Part shown: positions 9,298 through 18,368 of the stretch, one piece after another
How the letters are laid out: each line of letters starts with the position of its first letter
How positions within the stretch are numbered: position 1 is the first letter of the stretch
Source: Kamptonema formosum PCC 6407
Lineage (GTDB): Bacteria > Cyanobacteriota > Cyanobacteriia > Cyanobacteriales > Microcoleaceae
DNA: 64,000 nucleotides
Assembly (NCBI RefSeq): GCF_000332155.1
Contig: NZ_KB235903.1
Location: 1,893,328-1,957,327 of the forward strand
Reading direction: 5' to 3'
The notes under the pieces: generated by a model
What the model saw: the letters and a program-made list of their open reading frames with translations, nothing else
The model's database searches: none
What the model was told of the DNA's origin: nothing
Position numbers and translations under genes: made by a program

Positions 9298-9370
9298 CTA
9301 CACAATAGCCTCAAACATATATAGTGGCTTACAGGCTGTTTGTGGCGATCGCCCACCCGACAAGTTATAG

Positions 9371-9434
9371 CAGTTAACAGTTAACAGTTAACAGTTAACA
9401 AATAACAAATAACAACTAACCACTAACTACTAAC
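9371..9434. repeat. AGTTAAC heptamer tract
   Basis: Four tandem AGTTAAC heptamers pass into degenerate AACAAAT and AACTAAC units just before the gene at 9445. Short tandemly repeated sequences of seven bases like this are common between genes of filamentous cyanobacteria. Confidence 0.8.
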
Positions 9435-9444
9435 AATTTGAGTT

Positions 9445-11402: not shown

Positions 11403-11540
11403 GGGAAAGAGGAGGAGATGGGGGAGATGGGGAGGATGGTAATTACCAATTACCAATCACCAATTACCAACTAACAACTAACAACTAACAACTAACAATT
11501 AGCGATTACCAATTACCAATTACCAATCACCAATTACCAA
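11403..11540. repeat. Purine tract and TTACCAA/TAACAAC heptamers
   Basis: A GGGGAGAT-type tract (11403-11437) passes into tandem AATTACC and CAACTAA heptamers that run up to the stop codon of the anti-sigma gene. No gene is seen. Confidence 0.8.
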
Positions 11541-12320
11541 TTATAAACTCCCCGTCATCACCATAGGCCCAGCCGGATTTTTAAGTAAAGGCGATGCTTC
11601 AACAGTCACAACTAATGTAGTTACTTCCCCATTAGTAGGCAGAGAAAGCTTGACAAAAACAGTGCCTTTTTCATTAGTATTAAACTGCTCCCAAGCCACT
11701 GTTTCCTCATTAATAACCGACCATAATTGATAAAATTGACCCTTGGGTAAAACCGGAAGATTCTTTAAAATTAAAACAGCTTTAGGTTCTCCGGGTGTAA
11801 CAACAATACTACCAGAAGCAGCAGAGGCTTGAGCCATACCTTTAAGAGAAACTAGATGAGTATTCGGTTGTTGCAACATCGCAATCACATCTTTTTGTCG
11901 CACAACCTGAGCCTCAAGCGTCGTTATTTGTTGTCTGAGTCGGTAGTTATCTAAACCAATAGCTAAAGCTAATAGTGCTGCTACGCTACCAATAATAGGA
12001 CTCCATCTTAGAGAAAATAGTTTTAGTTTTTCCCGAAGCAATGGGTGAGGATTTGCTGCAACAATCTTGTTTGGGAATGCAACAGTAGTTGTTGCAGCAG
12101 CTTCTAAAATAGAGTCATAAAGATGTGATGGCGGTGCGATATCAGGTAAAGCATAAGGCATGACTTCTAAAACTTCCTGTAAACTAGCTACCTCTGTAGC
12201 TAATTCAGGATTTTCTTTCAGCACTCGGCTTAATTCCTCAGCTTCTTCAGAGCTAAGGTTGCCAAGTACATAACCTGCCATCAATTCTTCTAAAGGTTCA
12301 GGAAATAAAGGCTCTGTCAT
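11541..12320 (-). CDS. Membrane anti-sigma factor, RskA-like
   Basis: The 259-residue protein has a cytoplasmic N-terminus (ELMAGYVLGNLSSEEAEEL, typical of RskA-type anti-sigma domains without a zinc finger), one membrane helix at about 106-123, a short coiled coil (125-150) and an extracytoplasmic RskA C-terminal domain. It would hold the sigma factor encoded just upstream until a periplasmic signal releases it. The start at MTEPLFPEP is chosen because the longer frame overlaps the sigma gene; this leaves only 8 bases between the genes. A stop codon closes the frame inside the heptamer tract. Confidence 0.85.
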   Translation of the reverse strand: MTEPLFPEPLEELMAGYVLGNLSSEEAEELSRVLKENPELATEVASLQEVLEVMPYALPDIAPPSHLYDSILEAAATTTVAFPNKIVAANPHPLLREKLKLFSLRWSPIIGSVAALLALAIGLDNYRLRQQITTLEAQVVRQKDVIAMLQQPNTHLVSLKGMAQASAASGSIVVTPGEPKAVLILKNLPVLPKGQFYQLWSVINEETVAWEQFNTNEKGTVFVKLSLPTNGEVTTLVVTVEASPLLKNPAGPMVMTGSL

Positions 12321-12328
12321 AGGTGTAA

Positions 12329-12919
12329 CTAGCCAATTAAATTTTGTAAGTTTTTTCTTAAATTCAATAAACCTTGGCGAGACCAAGTTTTAATTGTTCC
12401 CAGTGGTATACTAAGTTTGGCGGCGATTTCCGATTGACTCAAGCCATCGTAATAAGCCATTTCTAACACCTGCCGTTGTTTTTCGGGAAGTTGAGCTAAG
12501 GCATCGCGAACATAGTGCGAACGGTCACTTAAAGAAGCTGATTCAAAAGGTGTAAGAGGTGGAATTTCAGTAGCCATCATCTGACTCCATCGCTGGAGAA
12601 ATTTCAACTTAGTGCTGCGGGAACGAAGTTTATCAATTGCTCGCGAACGAGTCAGAGTTGTCAAAAAGCTGCTCAAAGAGCCACGATTAGGATTGTAAGT
12701 TCTCTTTTGCCAGAGATTGATAAAAATCTCTTGGGTTAAGTCTTCTGCTTCTTGAGGGTTTGTCAAGATTCTCAGGGCCAATCTGTAGACTAAGCTGCCA
12801 TAGCGGTTATACAAAATACCCAAGGCAGATGCTTGACCAACACTTATTAACTGAAATAACTCAGCGTCAGTCTGTTTGTCAGGGTCATCCACGCTTGTTT
12901 CGGCAGGGTTCAAATCCAT
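12329..12919 (-). CDS. ECF-type sigma-70 factor
   Basis: With the start at MDLNPAETSVDD this is a 196-residue group IV sigma factor. Region 2 is ALGILYNRYGSLVYRLALRI...AEDLTQEIFINLWQ, and region 4 is LPEKQRQVLEMAYYDGLSQSEIAAKLSIPLGTIKTW. There is no region 3 or 1, as expected for ECF factors. It is co-transcribed with the anti-sigma gene and lies back to back with the methionine-rich lipoprotein gene at 13194, a likely target. A longer frame (47 more codons) looks non-coding. Confidence 0.9.
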   Translation of the reverse strand: MDLNPAETSVDDPDKQTDAELFQLISVGQASALGILYNRYGSLVYRLALRILTNPQEAEDLTQEIFINLWQKRTYNPNRGSLSSFLTTLTRSRAIDKLRSRSTKLKFLQRWSQMMATEIPPLTPFESASLSDRSHYVRDALAQLPEKQRQVLEMAYYDGLSQSEIAAKLSIPLGTIKTWSRQGLLNLRKNLQNLIG

Positions 12920-13120
12920 AGGTTTTTCGTAGAACAGACCTAAACTGATAATTCTAAGTTGATTTCGATGGTGGTAGCAAGGGCATCTCCAGAAAGAACC
13001 AGACTCCATCTTCTTAAATACGACCCACAGAACTGCTTGGATGTAGGGAAGTTGGGTCACTTAACCTGAGTGAAAAAAAATATTTGAGGTTGACAATCCA
13101 ATCTCAGGAGTCATCCGTAC

Positions 13121-13156
13121 TACAATAGAACGCACTGTTAGCGATTACCTGCTAAC
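13121..13156 (+). promoter_or_regulatory. -10 box and inverted repeat before the Met-rich lipoprotein
   Basis: TACAAT (13121-13126) resembles a -10 element, and GTTAGC-N8-GCTAAC (13137-13142/13151-13156) is a perfect inverted repeat just downstream, 38 bases before the lipoprotein ATG. It sits in the divergent region shared with the sigma gene. A repressor site over the transcript start, or a 5-prime UTR hairpin, would both fit. Confidence 0.35.
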
Positions 13157-13193
13157 TTGTAGAATTAATATTTCTCAGACTTGGAAGAAAAAT

Positions 13194-13484
13194 ATGAACC
13201 GGAAAGTGCTTTGTTTAGTTGTTGGTTTGACCTTAACGGCTAGTCTATATAGCTGTTCTTCTAGTCCTAACACTGAAAATCAGGTGGCTCCTAGTGCTTC
13301 GCCTGCTTCCATGAAAAGTCCTGACGCGATGAAGAGTCCCGATGCGATGAAGAGTCCTGATGCGATGAAAAGTCCCGATGCGATGAAAAGTCCCGATGCG
13401 ATGAAAAGTCCCGATGCGATGAAAAGTCCCGATGCGATGAAAAGTCCCGATGCGATGAAGAGTCCCGATGCGATGAAGAAATAG
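13194..13484 (+). CDS. Methionine-rich repeat lipoprotein (nine MKSPDA units)
   Basis: The 96 residues start with a signal peptide ending in a lipobox (LYSC, Cys21), then a Ser/Pro/Asn spacer, then nine exact MKSPDA units (13311-13472) and a final MKK. Ten Met lie in the last 57 residues. The layout recalls MXKDX-repeat proteins, among them the MrpX-type methionine sponges that soak up hypochlorite and are re-reduced by periplasmic Met-sulfoxide reductases (family knowledge). Neighbours fit that role: a sigma/anti-sigma pair upstream, and thiol and Met-sulfoxide repair genes downstream. The repeat DNA is almost identical from unit to unit, which points to recent expansion. A GGAAG ribosome site precedes the ATG. 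The function is inferred. Confidence 0.85.
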   Translation: MNRKVLCLVVGLTLTASLYSCSSSPNTENQVAPSASPASMKSPDAMKSPDAMKSPDAMKSPDAMKSPDAMKSPDAMKSPDAMKSPDAMKSPDAMKK

Positions 13485-13562
13485 TATTTGTGGGGCGGGC
13501 GCTGCGGCAAACTTGATCTTGAGGATAATCAAAATTATAGATTACGCCAGCGCCCCTCTTCC

Positions 13563-14255
13563 TTAAAGTGGTAAAGTTGGGAAAAATGGAGCTAACCAAA
13601 GTTGGATCTTGACATCCCAACCTAAAATAATCGCGATCGCACTGAGTACAACAATTACTCCGCCAATTCTCTGTAAGGCTGCACTATGGGGGCGCAAGCG
13701 TAATAAGTTCTGGCTGAAATACCGCCCTCCATAGGCGATCGCTAGCAGCGGTAATCCCGCCCCCAAACCGTACAAAACTAATAAAACAAAGGTAGTTGTA
13801 GGCTGAGGGTTGACAACAGCTATAACCAAAATACTCGCCAGAACTGGGCCCGCGCAAGGTGTCCACAGCAAACCGAGTTGAGTTCCCAGCCAAAATTCAC
13901 CCATTAACCCCACCCGTACAGGTTCTTTCAGCCAACGTTGAAAGTGTAAGTATTTAAACACTAATTGGTAAATCTGGGGAAAAATGGTACTTACCCCAGC
14001 CATCAGCAGAAATGCAATTGCTCCATTGCGGAGAACGCTAGCAAGGCTAACAAACCAAGTTGATGTTACTCCCAATAAACTCCCAATTGCTGCAAAACCA
14101 GTAATTAATCCTAATACCAAAGCAACGGGGCCATAGCGATGAGATTGAAGGCTTCGCCCTAATAATAGAGGTAAAATTGGCAAAATACAAGGCGAGAGGA
14201 TAGTTAGAAATCCCGCTAGCAAAGCTACACCAGTCGAAGGGAGTGAAGTTGCCAT
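13563..14255 (-). CDS. ccdA: CcdA/DsbD-type thiol transport membrane protein
   Basis: The 230 residues form about six membrane helices with the two conserved CcdA cysteines, C23 (LSPCILP) and C133 (TPCAGPV). Such proteins pass electrons from cytoplasmic thioredoxin across the membrane to extracytoplasmic thioredoxin-like partners. The gene lies 4 bases after an anchored thioredoxin-like gene, so the two form a split DipZ-like unit. The best-known target of CcdA is cytochrome c maturation; the neighbouring exported MsrB gives another candidate acceptor. Confidence 0.88.
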   Translation of the reverse strand: MATSLPSTGVALLAGFLTILSPCILPILPLLLGRSLQSHRYGPVALVLGLITGFAAIGSLLGVTSTWFVSLASVLRNGAIAFLLMAGVSTIFPQIYQLVFKYLHFQRWLKEPVRVGLMGEFWLGTQLGLLWTPCAGPVLASILVIAVVNPQPTTTFVLLVLYGLGAGLPLLAIAYGGRYFSQNLLRLRPHSAALQRIGGVIVVLSAIAIILGWDVKIQLWLAPFFPTLPL

Positions 14256-14259
14256 TTAA

Positions 14260-14892
14260 CTACCCTAATAACTGGCGAATTGTCTGTTCTGTTTCGTCAT
14301 AAGCTCCTTCCCCAATATGATTATAGCGCCGAATGCCTTGTCGATCTGCTAAAAATAAATGAGGCCAGTATTCATTCTTGTAAGCAAGCCAAGTTTTAAA
14401 CTCGTTATCCAAAGGTACTGGATAAGTAATTTGATATTCCTTCAAAGCTTTTTTGACATTATTTACATCGCGCTCAAATGGAAATTCAGGAGTATGTATG
14501 CCGATAATTTTTAATCCTCGCTCGGCATATTGGCGATGCCAACGAGTAATGTAGGGTAGAGTACGCTGGCAATTAATGCAGGCGAATGTCCAAAATTGTA
14601 CCAACACCACGCTACCTTTGAGATCGGATATTTTCAGCGGTGGAGAATTGAGCCACTGGCTAATACCCTGAAACTCTGGTAAAATCTGTCCTACCTGTGA
14701 AGTAATAGCTCGCTCTGTGGTAGGGGAAATATCGCTTTTAGGAGGAGTAAGTATTGGAATATTTGTAGAGCTAGAGGTTGGGGTAGCAGTTGACATCATC
14801 TCTTTCTTGAGACCAAAACTGATAGCAGTTCCACCAACTCCTAGCCCTAAATACCATAGTAATTTACGCCGCCCCGGCCCGCGATTGTTCAT
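14260..14892 (-). CDS. Membrane-anchored thioredoxin-like protein
   Basis: The 210-residue protein has an N-terminal basic-hydrophobic anchor (GRRKLLWYLGLGVGGTAISF), a Ser/Thr/Pro linker, and a thioredoxin-like domain from about 75. The active site is C105-I-N-C108 in WTFACINC, and GIHTPEFPFERD is typical of the DipZ/TlpA-like group. It likely faces the periplasm or thylakoid lumen and receives electrons from the CcdA encoded next to it. The gene starts back to back with the cytochrome b/molybdoenzyme/msrB genes. Confidence 0.87.
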   Translation of the reverse strand: MNNRGPGRRKLLWYLGLGVGGTAISFGLKKEMMSTATPTSSSTNIPILTPPKSDISPTTERAITSQVGQILPEFQGISQWLNSPPLKISDLKGSVVLVQFWTFACINCQRTLPYITRWHRQYAERGLKIIGIHTPEFPFERDVNNVKKALKEYQITYPVPLDNEFKTWLAYKNEYWPHLFLADRQGIRRYNHIGEGAYDETEQTIRQLLG

Positions 14893-15082
14893 AAGGTAAT
14901 TTTCCTTCCTTAATTTACTTTAGATACGGATATGACCGAAAATTGGATGTTTTCTGCAAATATAAAAAATTTTAAATCCAAAATAGAGTCAGCCTCGTAT
15001 TAAATAAAAGCCTACCAATGAGTTATCAGTTTGTATCGGAAGTTACAAATAGCAGTCTCATAGTATAGCAACAGACAAGAAT

Positions 15083-15156
15083 GTTAGGATAAATTCCGTA
15101 ACGCCGCCCAGAGGGCGACGTTACGTAAGTTCTCAAAACAATAAAGTTGTCCTAAC
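15083..15156. repeat. Dispersed palindromic element, copy C, and heptamers
   Basis: Outer arms GTTAGGA (15083-15089) and TCCTAAC (15150-15156) enclose the core GTAACGCCGCCCAGAGGGCG followed by ACGTTACGTA. This shortened copy has lost the central loop of copies A and D. The 407-base divergent gap around it (14893-15299) also has AATTAGC heptamers at 15210-15240; no other gene is seen. Confidence 0.7.
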
Positions 15157-15299
15157 CTAATTACCTTGACATTGGCTATAACATGAAAACTTGTATGGCA
15201 GTCAAAATTGTTAGCAATTAGCAATTAGCAATTAGCAAATTAACCTGCTACCAGACAAATGAAATGTTTATACCCTTCCTATTTAGCTAAATACTTACT

Positions 15300-15905
15300 A
15301 TGGATTCATCTGTCCCTTCTAAAACATCTCGACCTCGACTACCAAACCAGGCAGCTTTAGCAAAGTTATTTCACTGGCTAAATATCATTAGTTTAGTAAT
15401 GATGATTGGTAGTGGATTGCAAATTTACAATGCTAATCCTGTTTTTGGTGGGCGCGGAGGATGGCAATTTCCATCTATATTTTTGTTAGGTGGTTGGCTC
15501 GGTGCTGGTAGACATTGGCATTTCGCCGCCATGTGGTTATTCACACTTAATCTTTTTTGGTATGGTCTTTATATTTTCATTAGCCGCCGCTGGCAGCATC
15601 GTTTTCTCGGCTATAATGACCTCAAGGCTTTACAGAAGTCTCAAAACGTTAAGCGCAAAAATTATTCATGGCATCGCCTAGCTTATACAGCAATTATTCC
15701 GGTTTTACTGCTAGCAGTATTTAGTGGAGTGGGAATGTATAAACCTGCTCAATTCCACTGGATTGTTGATTTATTTGGCAGTTGGCAGGCGCTGAGAATA
15801 GTACACTTTATATCAGTTCCTACTGTCATTATTTTTTCACTCGTTCACTCTTGGCTAGGCCTCAAGGTTGGGGGTTTTCGCCTAATTAAGTCAATTTTTT
15901 GGTAG
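15300..15905 (+). CDS. Cytochrome b561-type membrane subunit
   Basis: The 201-residue protein has four hydrophobic helices with paired histidines (H25 in LFHWLNI, the GRHWHFAAMW segment, YSWHRLAY and IVHFISV...LVHSWLG) that could bind two b hemes. It belongs to the prokaryotic cytochrome b/b6-like family that serves as quinol-facing subunit of molybdoenzymes. The molybdoenzyme gene follows after 10 bases. It is not an MsrQ/YedZ relative in sequence, but fills the same position. Confidence 0.85.
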   Translation: MDSSVPSKTSRPRLPNQAALAKLFHWLNIISLVMMIGSGLQIYNANPVFGGRGGWQFPSIFLLGGWLGAGRHWHFAAMWLFTLNLFWYGLYIFISRRWQHRFLGYNDLKALQKSQNVKRKNYSWHRLAYTAIIPVLLLAVFSGVGMYKPAQFHWIVDLFGSWQALRIVHFISVPTVIIFSLVHSWLGLKVGGFRLIKSIFW

Positions 15906-15915
15906 AGGTTTACTC

Positions 15916-16632
15916 ATGTTTCCAAATTCTCATAAGTCATGGCAACGCCGCCAAGTTCTGCAATTATCGGGACTCTCTGGTATCGGTTTAATTTTGGGCG
16001 GTTGTGGATTAGTTCGCACTGATAATATCATTGGCAAAAGTTTTGAACCTTTGAACGAAAGTGTAGAAAGTTTGTTGTTTAATCCTCAAAAACTGGTACC
16101 GGAATTTCCAGCTAGTGCCATCGAACCTGATGCCTTAATTATCAATACTTTTGATTCAACTCCAGAGCTTGACGTAAAATCTTTTCGCCTGATAATTGAT
16201 GGTGAGGTAAATCGTCCTCTGAATTTAAGTCTAGAACAAATTAAAGTTATGCCTCTAACTGTCATGACAATTCGTCATGTTTGTGTGGAGGGTTGGGCCG
16301 CTATTGTGCAGTGGGGTGGGGTGCGGTTGCGGGATTTGGTTGCTCTTGCTCAACCAAAGGCAAATGCTCGCTACATTTACTTTAAATCTGCGGATGACTA
16401 CTATGAAAGTTGGGATATTGCTTCAGCTTTGCATCCTCAAACTTTGATGGCTTATCAAAAGAATGGTAATCCTTTGAGTATTGAAAATGGCGCACCTTTA
16501 CGCCTAGCATCGCCAATTAAGCTAGGTTATAAACAGAGTAAGTGGGTAACTAAAATTACGTTAGTTGGTGAATTACTCCCTGAAAAAGGTTACTGGGAAG
16601 ATCGAGGTTATGAGTGGTTTGCAGGACTATAA
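15916..16632 (+). CDS. YedY/sulfite-oxidase-like molybdopterin protein (lipobox signal)
   Basis: The 238-residue protein has an N-terminus with R11-R12, a hydrophobic stretch and LGGC (Cys30), which suggests Tat export followed by lipidation. The sulfite-oxidase-type molybdopterin domain shows the Mo-ligand Cys123 in HVCVEGW and a SPIKLGYKQSKWV C-terminal motif. As in YedY/MsrP there is no heme or dimerisation domain. MsrP reduces protein-bound Met sulfoxide in the periplasm; here the substrate is unproven, but the nearby exported MsrB and Met-repeat lipoprotein favour it. Electrons would come from the cytochrome b encoded upstream. Confidence 0.87.
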   Translation: MFPNSHKSWQRRQVLQLSGLSGIGLILGGCGLVRTDNIIGKSFEPLNESVESLLFNPQKLVPEFPASAIEPDALIINTFDSTPELDVKSFRLIIDGEVNRPLNLSLEQIKVMPLTVMTIRHVCVEGWAAIVQWGGVRLRDLVALAQPKANARYIYFKSADDYYESWDIASALHPQTLMAYQKNGNPLSIENGAPLRLASPIKLGYKQSKWVTKITLVGELLPEKGYWEDRGYEWFAGL

Positions 16633-16699
16633 TAGTAACTTGCTTGTTTATGTTTACTCGATGAGATTGGTTGGTTAATTAGCGATTGGATGATGTATA

Positions 16700-17194
16700 A
16701 TGAAGAAACGATTTTTTTTACAAGCAGGTTTAGGAGTGGTAGGTATGGCATGGTTATCTCGCTATTTACCTTGGACATCAAAAGTTATGGCATCTTCTAA
16801 TGATGTTTTTGAAATTACTAAAACTGAAGAAGAGTGGCGTACAATCTTGACTCCTCAACAGTTCCAAGTGCTGCGCCAACACGGTACTGAACGCGCTCAT
16901 ACTAGCCCTCTCGACAAGGAATATGGGAAGGGAATATACGCCTGTGCTGGTTGTGATTTGCCACTTTTTTCATCGGAAACTAAATTTGATAGCGGTACGG
17001 GTTGGCCCAGCTTTTTTGACCCGATACCAGGGGCAATTGGCACATCTGTTGATAATTCCTTGTTTACAACTAGAATTGAAGTACATTGTCGTCGCTGTGG
17101 TGGGCATTTGGGTCACGTATTTGATGATGGGCCCAAGCCAACTGGTAAACGCTACTGTATGAATGGCGTGGCTCTCAAATTTATTGGTGGGTGA
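16700..17194 (+). CDS. msrB: Exported peptide-methionine (R)-S-oxide reductase
   Basis: The 164 residues comprise an N-terminal signal or anchor (KKRFFLQAGLGVVGMAWL, Tat-like KR-F) and an MsrB domain. The zinc cysteines are C82/C85 (CAGC) and C130/C133 (CRRC), and the catalytic Cys153 is in RYCMNGVALKF. Ordinary MsrB is cytoplasmic; the leader makes this one extracytoplasmic. It reduces the R form of Met sulfoxide and needs a thiol donor, which the thioredoxin-like/CcdA pair nearby could provide. It follows the molybdoenzyme by 67 bases, so it is probably in the same operon. Confidence 0.92.
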   Translation: MKKRFFLQAGLGVVGMAWLSRYLPWTSKVMASSNDVFEITKTEEEWRTILTPQQFQVLRQHGTERAHTSPLDKEYGKGIYACAGCDLPLFSSETKFDSGTGWPSFFDPIPGAIGTSVDNSLFTTRIEVHCRRCGGHLGHVFDDGPKPTGKRYCMNGVALKFIGG

Positions 17195-17581: not shown

Positions 17582-18151
17582 ATGAAAACCTCACTCAAAC
17601 TTCAATTCGCTGCTCTTGCTGCTACTGCTATCGGCACAATTTCTGCAATAACTCCCGCGATTGCGGCCTTCACCTTTGGTCAAAAAGATGTTGACCAAAC
17701 GAAATTTGTAGCCGCCGCAGTTCCATTCCGAGGCGGTACTACTCACCAATTAGTAATTCTAGAACAGGTCTCGAATAAACGCGCTTGCTGGAGTGAAAGC
17801 GGCAATCGTCCTGTTACTGTAAATCCCCTATTATTAAAGTTTAATTTCACAGGAATTTGTGGACGCGCTACTGATAGTAATGGCTACTCTATTCGGGTGG
17901 CTGGAACTGATTTAGGGATGCAATATAATCTTAATATTCAGCGCGTTAATGGAGAGATGGTACTGGTTGGTACTAATCGCCGCAATCCTTCTGCTGCACC
18001 GATGGTAATTGGTCGCACTCGCGGTGTTGCTAATGGTTTAACTAAGATTTCTCTGGAACCAGGCTGGCGCTTTGCTAAGCGGACTTATAATGGTAAGATG
18101 TTAGGGCATATTTATCTTACTAATAATAACATGGCGCTGGTAAATCGGTAA
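17582..18151 (+). CDS. Exported DUF3747 protein
   Basis: The 189 residues have a clear signal peptide (cleavage likely after AIA, about 28) and then the DUF3747 pattern: FTFGQKDVDQTKFVAAAVP, LVILEQ, two Cys in CWSESG and FTGICGR, DSNGYSIR, and GWRFAKRTYNGKMLGHIYLT. The family is cyanobacterial, extracytoplasmic and of unknown function, often found on S-layer or cell-wall proteins. It stands alone between repeats. Confidence 0.82.
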   Translation: MKTSLKLQFAALAATAIGTISAITPAIAAFTFGQKDVDQTKFVAAAVPFRGGTTHQLVILEQVSNKRACWSESGNRPVTVNPLLLKFNFTGICGRATDSNGYSIRVAGTDLGMQYNLNIQRVNGEMVLVGTNRRNPSAAPMVIGRTRGVANGLTKISLEPGWRFAKRTYNGKMLGHIYLTNNNMALVNR

Positions 18152-18368
18152 TTGGTAATTGGTAATTGGTAATTGGTAATTGCATTTTCTTTTTGCCTTC
18201 TGCTATAATTAGCTTAAGGCTCTTGTCAGCAGTAGTCTAAAGAGCTAGAATAAAATTCTACTTTATCAATCTATAACAACTGCCAAGACAGTTAGGACAC
18301 TCTAAATTGCTGAAACCATTGATTTTATTCCCTCTTCCCTAACCTCTAGCCCCTAGCCCCTAGTCCCT
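18152..18368. repeat. TTGGTAA and CTAGCCC heptamer tracts
   Basis: Five TTGGTAA units follow the DUF3747 stop, and CTAGCCC-type units sit at about 18335-18368. No gene is seen between them. Confidence 0.75.

Follow-up and report, generated by a model that had tools for sequence, protein, structure and literature searches.

The window analysed here, a 64,000-nucleotide stretch of DNA from Kamptonema formosum PCC 6407, contains at 11541..17194 a block of eight genes that combines a sigma/anti-sigma pair with a methionine (Met)-rich lipoprotein and candidate enzymes of methionine sulfoxide repair. The positions of all eight open reading frames (ORFs) and the Pfam/NCBIfam identities of their products bear out the gene calls of an earlier sequence-only reading of this DNA. 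The genes and the promoter motifs before them, with ECF standing for extracytoplasmic function, Msr for methionine sulfoxide reductase, RR for twin arginine and Tat for twin-arginine translocation, are:

11541..12320, minus strand: anti-sigma factor, RskA_C (Pfam/NCBIfam, alignment)
12329..12919, minus strand: ECF sigma factor, SigK-like (Pfam/NCBIfam, best solved structure, tree)
13019..13042, minus strand: promoter motif ATCCRA-N14-CGTA for the sigma gene, 99 bp from the ATG
13096..13119, plus strand: promoter motif for the Met-rich lipoprotein gene, 74 bp from the ATG
13194..13484, plus strand: Met-rich lipoprotein with lipobox LYSC and nine MKSPDA repeats; a proposed decoy for oxidants
13563..14255, minus strand: CcdA/DsbD transmembrane electron conduit (Pfam/NCBIfam)
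14260..14892, minus strand: thioredoxin-like protein, RR leader, CINC; DipZ of M. tuberculosis is its nearest match among solved structures
14925..14948, minus strand: promoter motif for thioredoxin-ccdA, 32 bp from the ATG
14976..14999, plus strand: promoter motif for cytochrome b-molybdoenzyme(-msrB), 300 bp from the ATG (32-155 bp in those relatives where this was measured)
15300..15905, plus strand: membrane protein of cytochrome b561 type (Ni_hydr_CYTB), proposed to pass electrons from quinol to the molybdoenzyme
15916..16632, plus strand: MsrP/YedY-like molybdoenzyme (Oxidored_molyb, 26-orthologue alignment)
16700..17194, plus strand: MsrB with Tat-like export leader, starting 67 bp after the molybdoenzyme gene

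The anti-sigma factor matches RskA_C at 70.9 bits (Pfam), and the sigma factor matches PRK12519 at 287.7 bits (cut-off 222). Their likely start codons are the ATGs at 12320 and 12919, the former being inferred within an ORF that itself extends upstream to a TTG at 12386. The CcdA protein scores 36.2 bits with DsbD_TM/CcdA, the cytochrome b 45.3 bits with Ni_hydr_CYTB (b561), the molybdoenzyme 117.5 bits with Oxidored_molyb and MsrB 179.7 bits with TIGR00357 (cut-off 113). The thioredoxin-like protein, with its RR leader and CINC motif, belongs to the AhpC-TSA/ResA-like family.

Whether related genomes conserve this block has a divided answer. It recurs in several cyanobacterial families, but patchily: of the 59 relatives searched, 6 have a molybdoenzyme orthologue (E below 1e-100), as do 2/36 genomes of the window's own family. 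The nearest named relative, Kamptonema sp. UHCC 0994, has a molybdoenzyme 95% identical. Counts of loci out of 80 refer to the best 80 of 276 molybdoenzyme relatives, and are lower bounds because some contigs are cut (e.g., L036). Thioredoxin and/or CcdA lies beside the cytochrome b-molybdoenzyme pair at 24 of these 80 loci (excluding L107, with a 35% thioredoxin match), and five of the 24 also have the sigma and anti-sigma genes. Two layouts are seen. In the first, sigma-anti-sigma is divergent from the lipoprotein gene and ccdA-thioredoxin is divergent from cytochrome b-molybdoenzyme; the second is a collinear operon in the order Met-rich gene, thioredoxin, ccdA, cytochrome b, molybdoenzyme. 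Sets that include the sigma gene also occur in other families (L207 in genome G269, L208 in G080 and L304 in G278).

A Met-rich exported gene is present at 20/24 loci with thioredoxin/CcdA versus 2/56 loci without (Fisher p about 6e-13), as detected by tblastn or by a composition detector; one of the latter two, L067, looks spurious. Among the four loci without a counted match, L038 has a degenerate copy, and inspection by eye shows an exported Met-repeat protein at L104. In the L044 genome, a Met-rich gene stands beside the sigma gene elsewhere (L249). Loci were also fetched by thioredoxin alone, which avoids selection by the molybdoenzyme; thioredoxin orthologues (E<=1e-55) occur in 65 of 291 genomes of the class, and 20 of 29 loci other than our own have a Met-rich gene within 1.5-kb flanks.

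A common promoter motif, ATCCRA-N14-CGTA with constant spacing, connects the units of the block. The motif was defined by eye from the intergenic region between the sigma and lipoprotein genes plus the upstream regions of Met-rich genes. It was then found, with no mismatch in the window, before the thioredoxin-ccdA and cytochrome b-molybdoenzyme units, whose sites played no part in the definition and were read only where these units have a promoter region of their own, as in the divergent layout. The 64-kb window holds five matches, four of which precede the block's four units, as compared to a mean of 0.19 and a maximum of 2 in shuffled sequence. The window msrB lacks a separate motif within 330 bp and is probably read from the cytochrome b promoter.

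We then asked how the motif is distributed relative to the sigma factor. In an unrooted tree of 35 sigma factors, the 15 block-linked ones group with those of L206 and L210, apart from 18 relatives (branch support 97/81); we refer to this group as the clade. Within clade genomes, the exact motif stands before the Met-rich lipoprotein gene in 13/13 cases, before cytochrome b in 9/9 and before thioredoxin in 9/10, the tenth having one mismatch (L044). Sigma promoters have it exactly in 11 of 16 cases and with one mismatch in four; L250 has none there, and its second Met-rich gene has the exact motif. By comparison, 13 of 3000 random 330-nt stretches contain an exact match. The promoters of Met-rich genes with a peptidoglycan (PG)-binding domain carry it with one mismatch in L089 and exactly in L142 and L211. 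In genus g69, nine of ten thioredoxin loci have the exact motif before the Met-rich gene; the remaining locus starts 176 bp from the end of a contig.

Across the block-bearing genomes read, the exact motif is found at a block promoter in 15/15 genomes with a clade sigma versus 0/25 without (p 2.5e-11). The negatives comprise 12 genomes with no sigma at 1e-40 and 13 with only non-clade relatives. G346 is the same genome as G064 and was counted once; the lipoprotein genes of G072 and G341 are identical and the two may represent a single genome, which would make the comparison 15 versus 24. Seven negatives (G154, G211, G323, G165, G330, G263 and G239) were read only within 1.5 kb of thioredoxin; G341, likewise read near thioredoxin, is doubled by the longer locus of G072. 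Three negative loci (L077, L050 and L105) have the exact motif elsewhere in the locus. Five positive genomes (G002, G065, G080, G269 and G278) were out of view when the motif was defined, and in G056, G064, G065 and G364, where the sigma gene is off the block contig or apart from the block, its status was learnt only afterwards. In G192 the sigma gene starts near a contig end. The proposal that the block is under common control is upheld by sequence to the extent of a shared promoter motif that tracks the sigma clade.

The motif also points to unlinked targets. The Kamptonema formosum genome has 23 exact matches versus 10 in the backwards control. All 19 matches outside the block were read one by one, for this genome only: 17 lie inside ORFs, those at L118 and L123 being short and doubtful, one lies 527 bp from the next ORF, and one lies ~37 bp before a leader-bearing MsrA (PMSR, 203 bits). 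This last site is retained in G002 and G036. Since an unlinked leader-bearing MsrA shares the promoter motif, the system is larger than the block. In G036, which belongs to another family, MsrA and a Met-rich PG-binding protein are encoded divergently at an unlinked locus, with MsrB following the latter and the exact motif present on each side; G055 has a Met-rich PG-binding protein plus MsrB with the motif. For G002, G036, G055, G056 and 10 further genomes, we read the matches near the block, msr or Met-rich genes or shared with our own genome, and for G041 all five non-sigma matches; match numbers in several of these genomes are close to the backwards control. Separately, at L118 (G000 C1:964200-964223) an exact motif lies 95 bp before a thioesterase-like gene and overlaps only the doubtful short ORF, making this gene a possible further target.

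These data refine the place of MsrB, which the sequence-only reading had counted as a member of the block. It is a member in the window, but MsrB-bearing block loci number 3/80, two of them from the window's genus or nearest kin. Leader-bearing MsrA is near the block at 5/80 loci, and elsewhere MsrA/MsrB occupy a second locus that bears this promoter motif too. The predicted export of MsrB agrees with the leader sequence: in 14 of the 20 genomes searched, MsrB matches extend over the leader with no stop, and the G066 copy has a stop in the leader. In some genomes, though not in all, CcdA, an exported CxxC thioredoxin and exported MsrA/MsrB all fall, by sequence, under the common motif.

The scarcity of MsrB in the block could be explained if this were a general operon for envelope stress and disulfide maintenance, with DipZ/CcdA under a SigK-like sigma, the lipoprotein as a spacer or wall protein and the Msr enzymes as bystanders. 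The best solved matches of the sigma and the thioredoxin are SigK and DipZ, and mycobacteria have SigK/RskA and DipZ together, DipZ being in the SigK regulon. In addition, two Met-rich proteins have a wall-binding domain. We nevertheless consider this explanation improbable, given that the motif scan recovers MsrA and a Met-rich/MsrB pair at second loci and that repeat units and carriers change freely while Met is retained.

The description of the window protein as a lipoprotein with nine MKSPDA repeats proved accurate: Tandem Repeats Finder (TRF) gives a period of 18 and 9.3 copies, and the nine units come in 4 distinct versions, set apart by three synonymous sites alone. Among relatives the unit varies (MKSPDA, DAMKGD, SKDKAGDAM, GGSMMKPGAM) and Met is constant. 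The carriers are a lipoprotein, PG_binding_1 proteins (L048, L142, L211), a DM13 protein (L207), a plain secreted protein (L077) and an exported protein with a Met-repeat insert (L104). That unrelated exported scaffolds carry a Met repeat suggests that Met is the working part. All evidence presented here is from sequence. Export was judged from leaders, and a lipobox or signal-like start at the loci inspected supports it, except for the L038 copy, which is degenerate and has no lipobox. The window protein does not match the MXKDX-repeat model TIGR02953 at E<=0.001; of five Met-rich relatives, two score above its cut-off (89 and 58.7), two below (39.6 and 32.4) and one not at all, with the caveat that this model is low-complexity.

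Met-rich periplasmic proteins and Scs thioredoxin systems are known in copper tolerance, and an alternative would be a copper or metal defence module composed of a Met-rich metal-binding protein and an Scs-like CcdA/thioredoxin pair. A few relatives do have His or Cys within the repeat (L077, L053, L078) or adjacent Met pairs (L048, L053). However, His and Cys are absent from the window repeat, where Met occurs once per six residues; most of the members listed have this sparse spacing too, and the co-regulated genes recovered encode Msr enzymes. Reading the loci by eye turned up no copper gene, although no search was aimed at copper genes. Taken together, we regard a metal module as very unlikely.

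Several further Met-rich and small exported proteins were observed. A secreted protein of Acaryochloris sp. CRU_2_0 (L053 8971-9306) has MMKDGMMKKDD repeats at its end and directly precedes cytochrome b-molybdoenzyme without thioredoxin/CcdA. In two families an exported DM13 (electron transfer) protein lies inside the operon (L304 3972-4475, L207 4015-4515), and the L207 protein has its own Met-rich N-terminal repeat. A small exported protein (containing GDLEPIAVQPGGAGMVVNLYNKANNVTF) and a 240-260-aa membrane protein recur near the sigma, MsrA, MsrB or block genes (L104 355-1889; L208 5019-6489; L213 516-1844; L148 2590-3656). The small protein of L104 is the one with the Met-repeat insert, and this pair is possibly another member of the system.

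The sigma factor itself has SigK as its best solved structure, although it scores 130.5 bits with the NCBI SigK subfamily model, under the cut-off of 226. It is the single sigma of its kind in its own genome at E<=1e-10. The motif resembles the SigK promoter, which we take to be CCATCC-N16/17-CCGAAT (this sequence was sought in text and not found there). A redox cysteine (Cys) pair is absent: the window sigma has no Cys, and each of the 15 block-linked sigmas has 0 or 1. An ECF16-type pair was excluded by RskA_C and the one hydrophobic segment of the anti-sigma, as opposed to the six-transmembrane DUF1109 anti-sigma of that type.

The anti-sigma consists of a cytoplasmic N-terminal part, one transmembrane segment (about 106-124) and a periplasmic domain, and has no Cys; its structure model (mean pLDDT, the predicted local distance difference test, 70) gives secondary structure. 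Four periplasmic residues, M148, M162, M253 and M255, are invariant in 15/15 block-linked anti-sigmas. With 25 of 132 periplasmic positions invariant, the chance that all four Met would be among them is about 0.001, for random placement that ignores shared ancestry. Outside the block-linked set, L210 has four of these Met and L206 three; the remaining 16 anti-sigmas have M148 in one case, M162 and M253 in none and M255 in nine. Non-clade relatives frequently have a Cys in this domain in place of the Met. Cys totals are 19 in 19 anti-sigmas outside the clade versus 2 in 14 block-linked ones, where the block-linked L262 is counted among the 19; the L262 anti-sigma is that of L304 and has all four Met. 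Given the clade's shared ancestry, the four invariant Met suggest a lead toward Met sensing and do not constitute proof. It is possible, if rather doubtful, that the anti-sigma is a direct sensor of Met oxidation in which sulfoxidation of the four Met frees the sigma, and in which the Msr enzymes acting on the decoy also reset this sensor in a feedback loop.

From these alignments and motif readings, a single ECF sigma probably controls the proposed Met-rich decoy, the MsrP-like molybdoenzyme with its cytochrome b, the CcdA/DipZ-like line and, with membership that varies, exported MsrA and MsrB. A number of observations weigh against this assignment. Because 10 of the 15 positive genomes were already in view when the motif was defined, the p value is partly in-sample. 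The clade sigma is rare, found in 6/291 genomes of the class at E<=1e-75, a cut that misses genus g69, whose sigma is 57% identical. Msr membership varies: msrA promoters in clade genomes have the motif exactly in 3/9 cases and with one mismatch in 3/9, the MsrA genes of G062, G064 and G041 have none, and lone exported msrB promoters have it in 0/2 (G060, G062). For G041, with a clade sigma and all four anti-sigma Met, a motif at MsrA had been predicted, and this prediction failed. L046 has the sigma and motif with no Met-rich gene in the block, and clade members G041 and G192 have no thioredoxin orthologue at E<=1e-55. Five of the 18 non-clade sigma genes (L253, L255, L256, L258, L264) are preceded by the exact motif. 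Finally, the partner cytochrome b is not MsrQ, the molybdoenzyme reaches 94.3 of the 207 bits required by the NCBI MsrP equivalog model, and 56/80 loci have cytochrome b-molybdoenzyme without thioredoxin/CcdA, so this pair also has an independent existence.

The last two points would also fit a molybdoenzyme and cytochrome b that act on something else (sulfite, or some other S- or N-oxide) and share no more than the regulation. Against this, the best solved homologue is YedY/MsrP (1xdq) at 82.7 bits, with the next at 44.5, and the presumed molybdenum-ligand Cys (C123, in RHVCVEGW) is invariant in 26/26 orthologues, as are the RR (R11, R12) and the lipobox Cys (C30). The other predicted targets, moreover, belong to Met redox or its electron supply. 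A structure prediction from the 26 sequences (mean pLDDT 53) was too poor for a fold search. We judge a different substrate unlikely, and a single-sigma regulon for Met redox in the cyanobacterial cell envelope is, on the sequence evidence, the likely explanation of the block.

The exact motif before five non-clade sigma genes indicates that it is recognized, or at least carried, by a wider sigma group; it is at block promoters alone that its occurrence tracks the clade. At L258 (2207-3132), where the genes for a Ferritin_2 protein and a non-clade RskA-type sigma diverge, the exact motif occurs on either side, which may mark a sister regulon with a different target. In three genomes, an exported 204-213-aa protein preceded by the exact motif adjoins a third group of RskA-type sigmas (L263 2377-3102, L264 25-757, L265 2338-3039). 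Short 7-base repeat arrays (AATTACC, TAACAAC, TTAGCAA, TGGTAAT) lie around the block, in or edging intergenic DNA, at window positions 11441-11543, 9367-9436, 15211-15238 and 18138-18182.

Gene identities, leaders, recurrent linkage and the shared motif with its tracking of the sigma clade can be read directly from the DNA; electron routes, substrates, decoy function and trigger are what we infer from them. At rest, the RskA-type anti-sigma would hold the ECF sigma at the membrane. A periplasmic oxidant (candidates are hypochlorous acid, singlet oxygen and peroxide) would trigger release of the sigma, possibly through oxidation of the four conserved periplasmic Met of the anti-sigma. The freed sigma would transcribe its own gene pair and the other ATCCRA-N14-CGTA promoters. 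The Met-repeat lipoprotein, displayed in the envelope, would act as a sacrificial oxidant sink. The MsrP-like molybdoenzyme, fed by the b561-type cytochrome from the quinone pool, would repair sulfoxides of the lipoprotein and of other envelope proteins. Exported MsrB and MsrA, acting on the R and S forms, respectively, may share sulfoxide repair, with cytoplasmic electrons reaching them via CcdA and the DipZ-like thioredoxin.

In oxygenic phototrophs, the cell's own membranes are a source of oxidants. We know of no report of this combination of features; among the matches listed, a search of the open-access literature found no description of a periplasmic Met-repair regulon of oxygenic phototrophs, in agreement with the initial view that the combination is undescribed. 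A single sigma with a readable promoter code would make the regulon predictable genome by genome, and the anti-sigma is a concrete candidate for a sensor that reads Met rather than Cys oxidation.

Parts of this system have counterparts in other bacteria, compared here with excerpts of the published accounts. Limnospira indica PCC 8005 has an MsrP-like molybdoenzyme described as a candidate methionine sulfoxide reductase, with no MsrQ found; its gene is repressed in a radiation transcriptome and is discussed singly, and the excerpt notes no block, decoy or sigma link (PMC8400943). We liken it by description, without implying orthology to the window enzyme. In Streptococcus pneumoniae, CcdA passes electrons to a surface thioredoxin (Etrx) and on to exported MsrA/MsrB (MsrAB2) (PMC3914529). 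CcdA, a surface thioredoxin and an exported Msr set are likewise present here, where the electron path is conjectural, whereas no Met-rich decoy, molybdoenzyme or dedicated ECF sigma is noted in that excerpt. Mycobacterial SigK/RskA has lipoprotein targets, MPT83/MPT70, and sigma autoregulation (PMC7509140). The SigK-type sigma, RskA anti-sigma, lipoprotein target and autoregulation (here from the motif) are common to the two, but SigK has a redox Cys pair where the window sigma is Cys-free, and the excerpt notes no Met-rich protein or Msr in the SigK regulon (PMC7509140). A DipZ thioredoxin domain is a further feature of both.

The closest functional parallels are in Brucella and Azospira. 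Brucella melitensis has the HOCl-induced BcrS/AbcS - BcrXQP system with an Msr in the regulon, and a gene of MXKDX-repeat (TIGR02953) type adjoins BcrS (PMC8315932). As in the window, the sigma gene is divergent from a Met-repeat gene and the sigma recognition sequence precedes both. ECF16 with a six-transmembrane DUF1109 anti-sigma, and MsrQ, are Brucella's own, and the thioredoxin/CcdA line found here is not noted for Brucella in the portion consulted (PMC8315932). In Azospira suillum, SigF/NrsF, MrpX and YedYZ provide a decoy plus MsrP-type repair (PMC4623255; PMC8315932), and the perchlorate-reduction islands of two other strains have msrA and msrB predicted to be exported (PMC4623255). 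Both systems combine a sigma/anti-sigma pair and an exported protein of Met-rich repeats with a molybdoenzyme of MsrP type, whose partner is a haem protein of the membrane. In contrast to Azospira, the window has a SigK/RskA-type pair, b561 for YedZ, a lipoprotein and a CcdA/DipZ-like line, with Msr genes under the sigma's own promoter motif. The idea of a cyanobacterial counterpart to the Azospira system survives as a functional likeness, including its different cytochrome b, here of b561 type (Ni_hydr_CYTB); the regulator is refined to a SigK/RskA-like pair (SigK structure, RskA_C) rather than SigF/NrsF. Because this regulator is also not of the ECF16/DUF1109 type, the likeness to Brucella and Azospira appears to be functional, and common descent is no part of our claim. 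The proposed regulon would unite a Met-rich decoy and molybdoenzyme, a CcdA-thioredoxin-MsrA/B line and SigK/RskA control, which are known separately in other bacteria.

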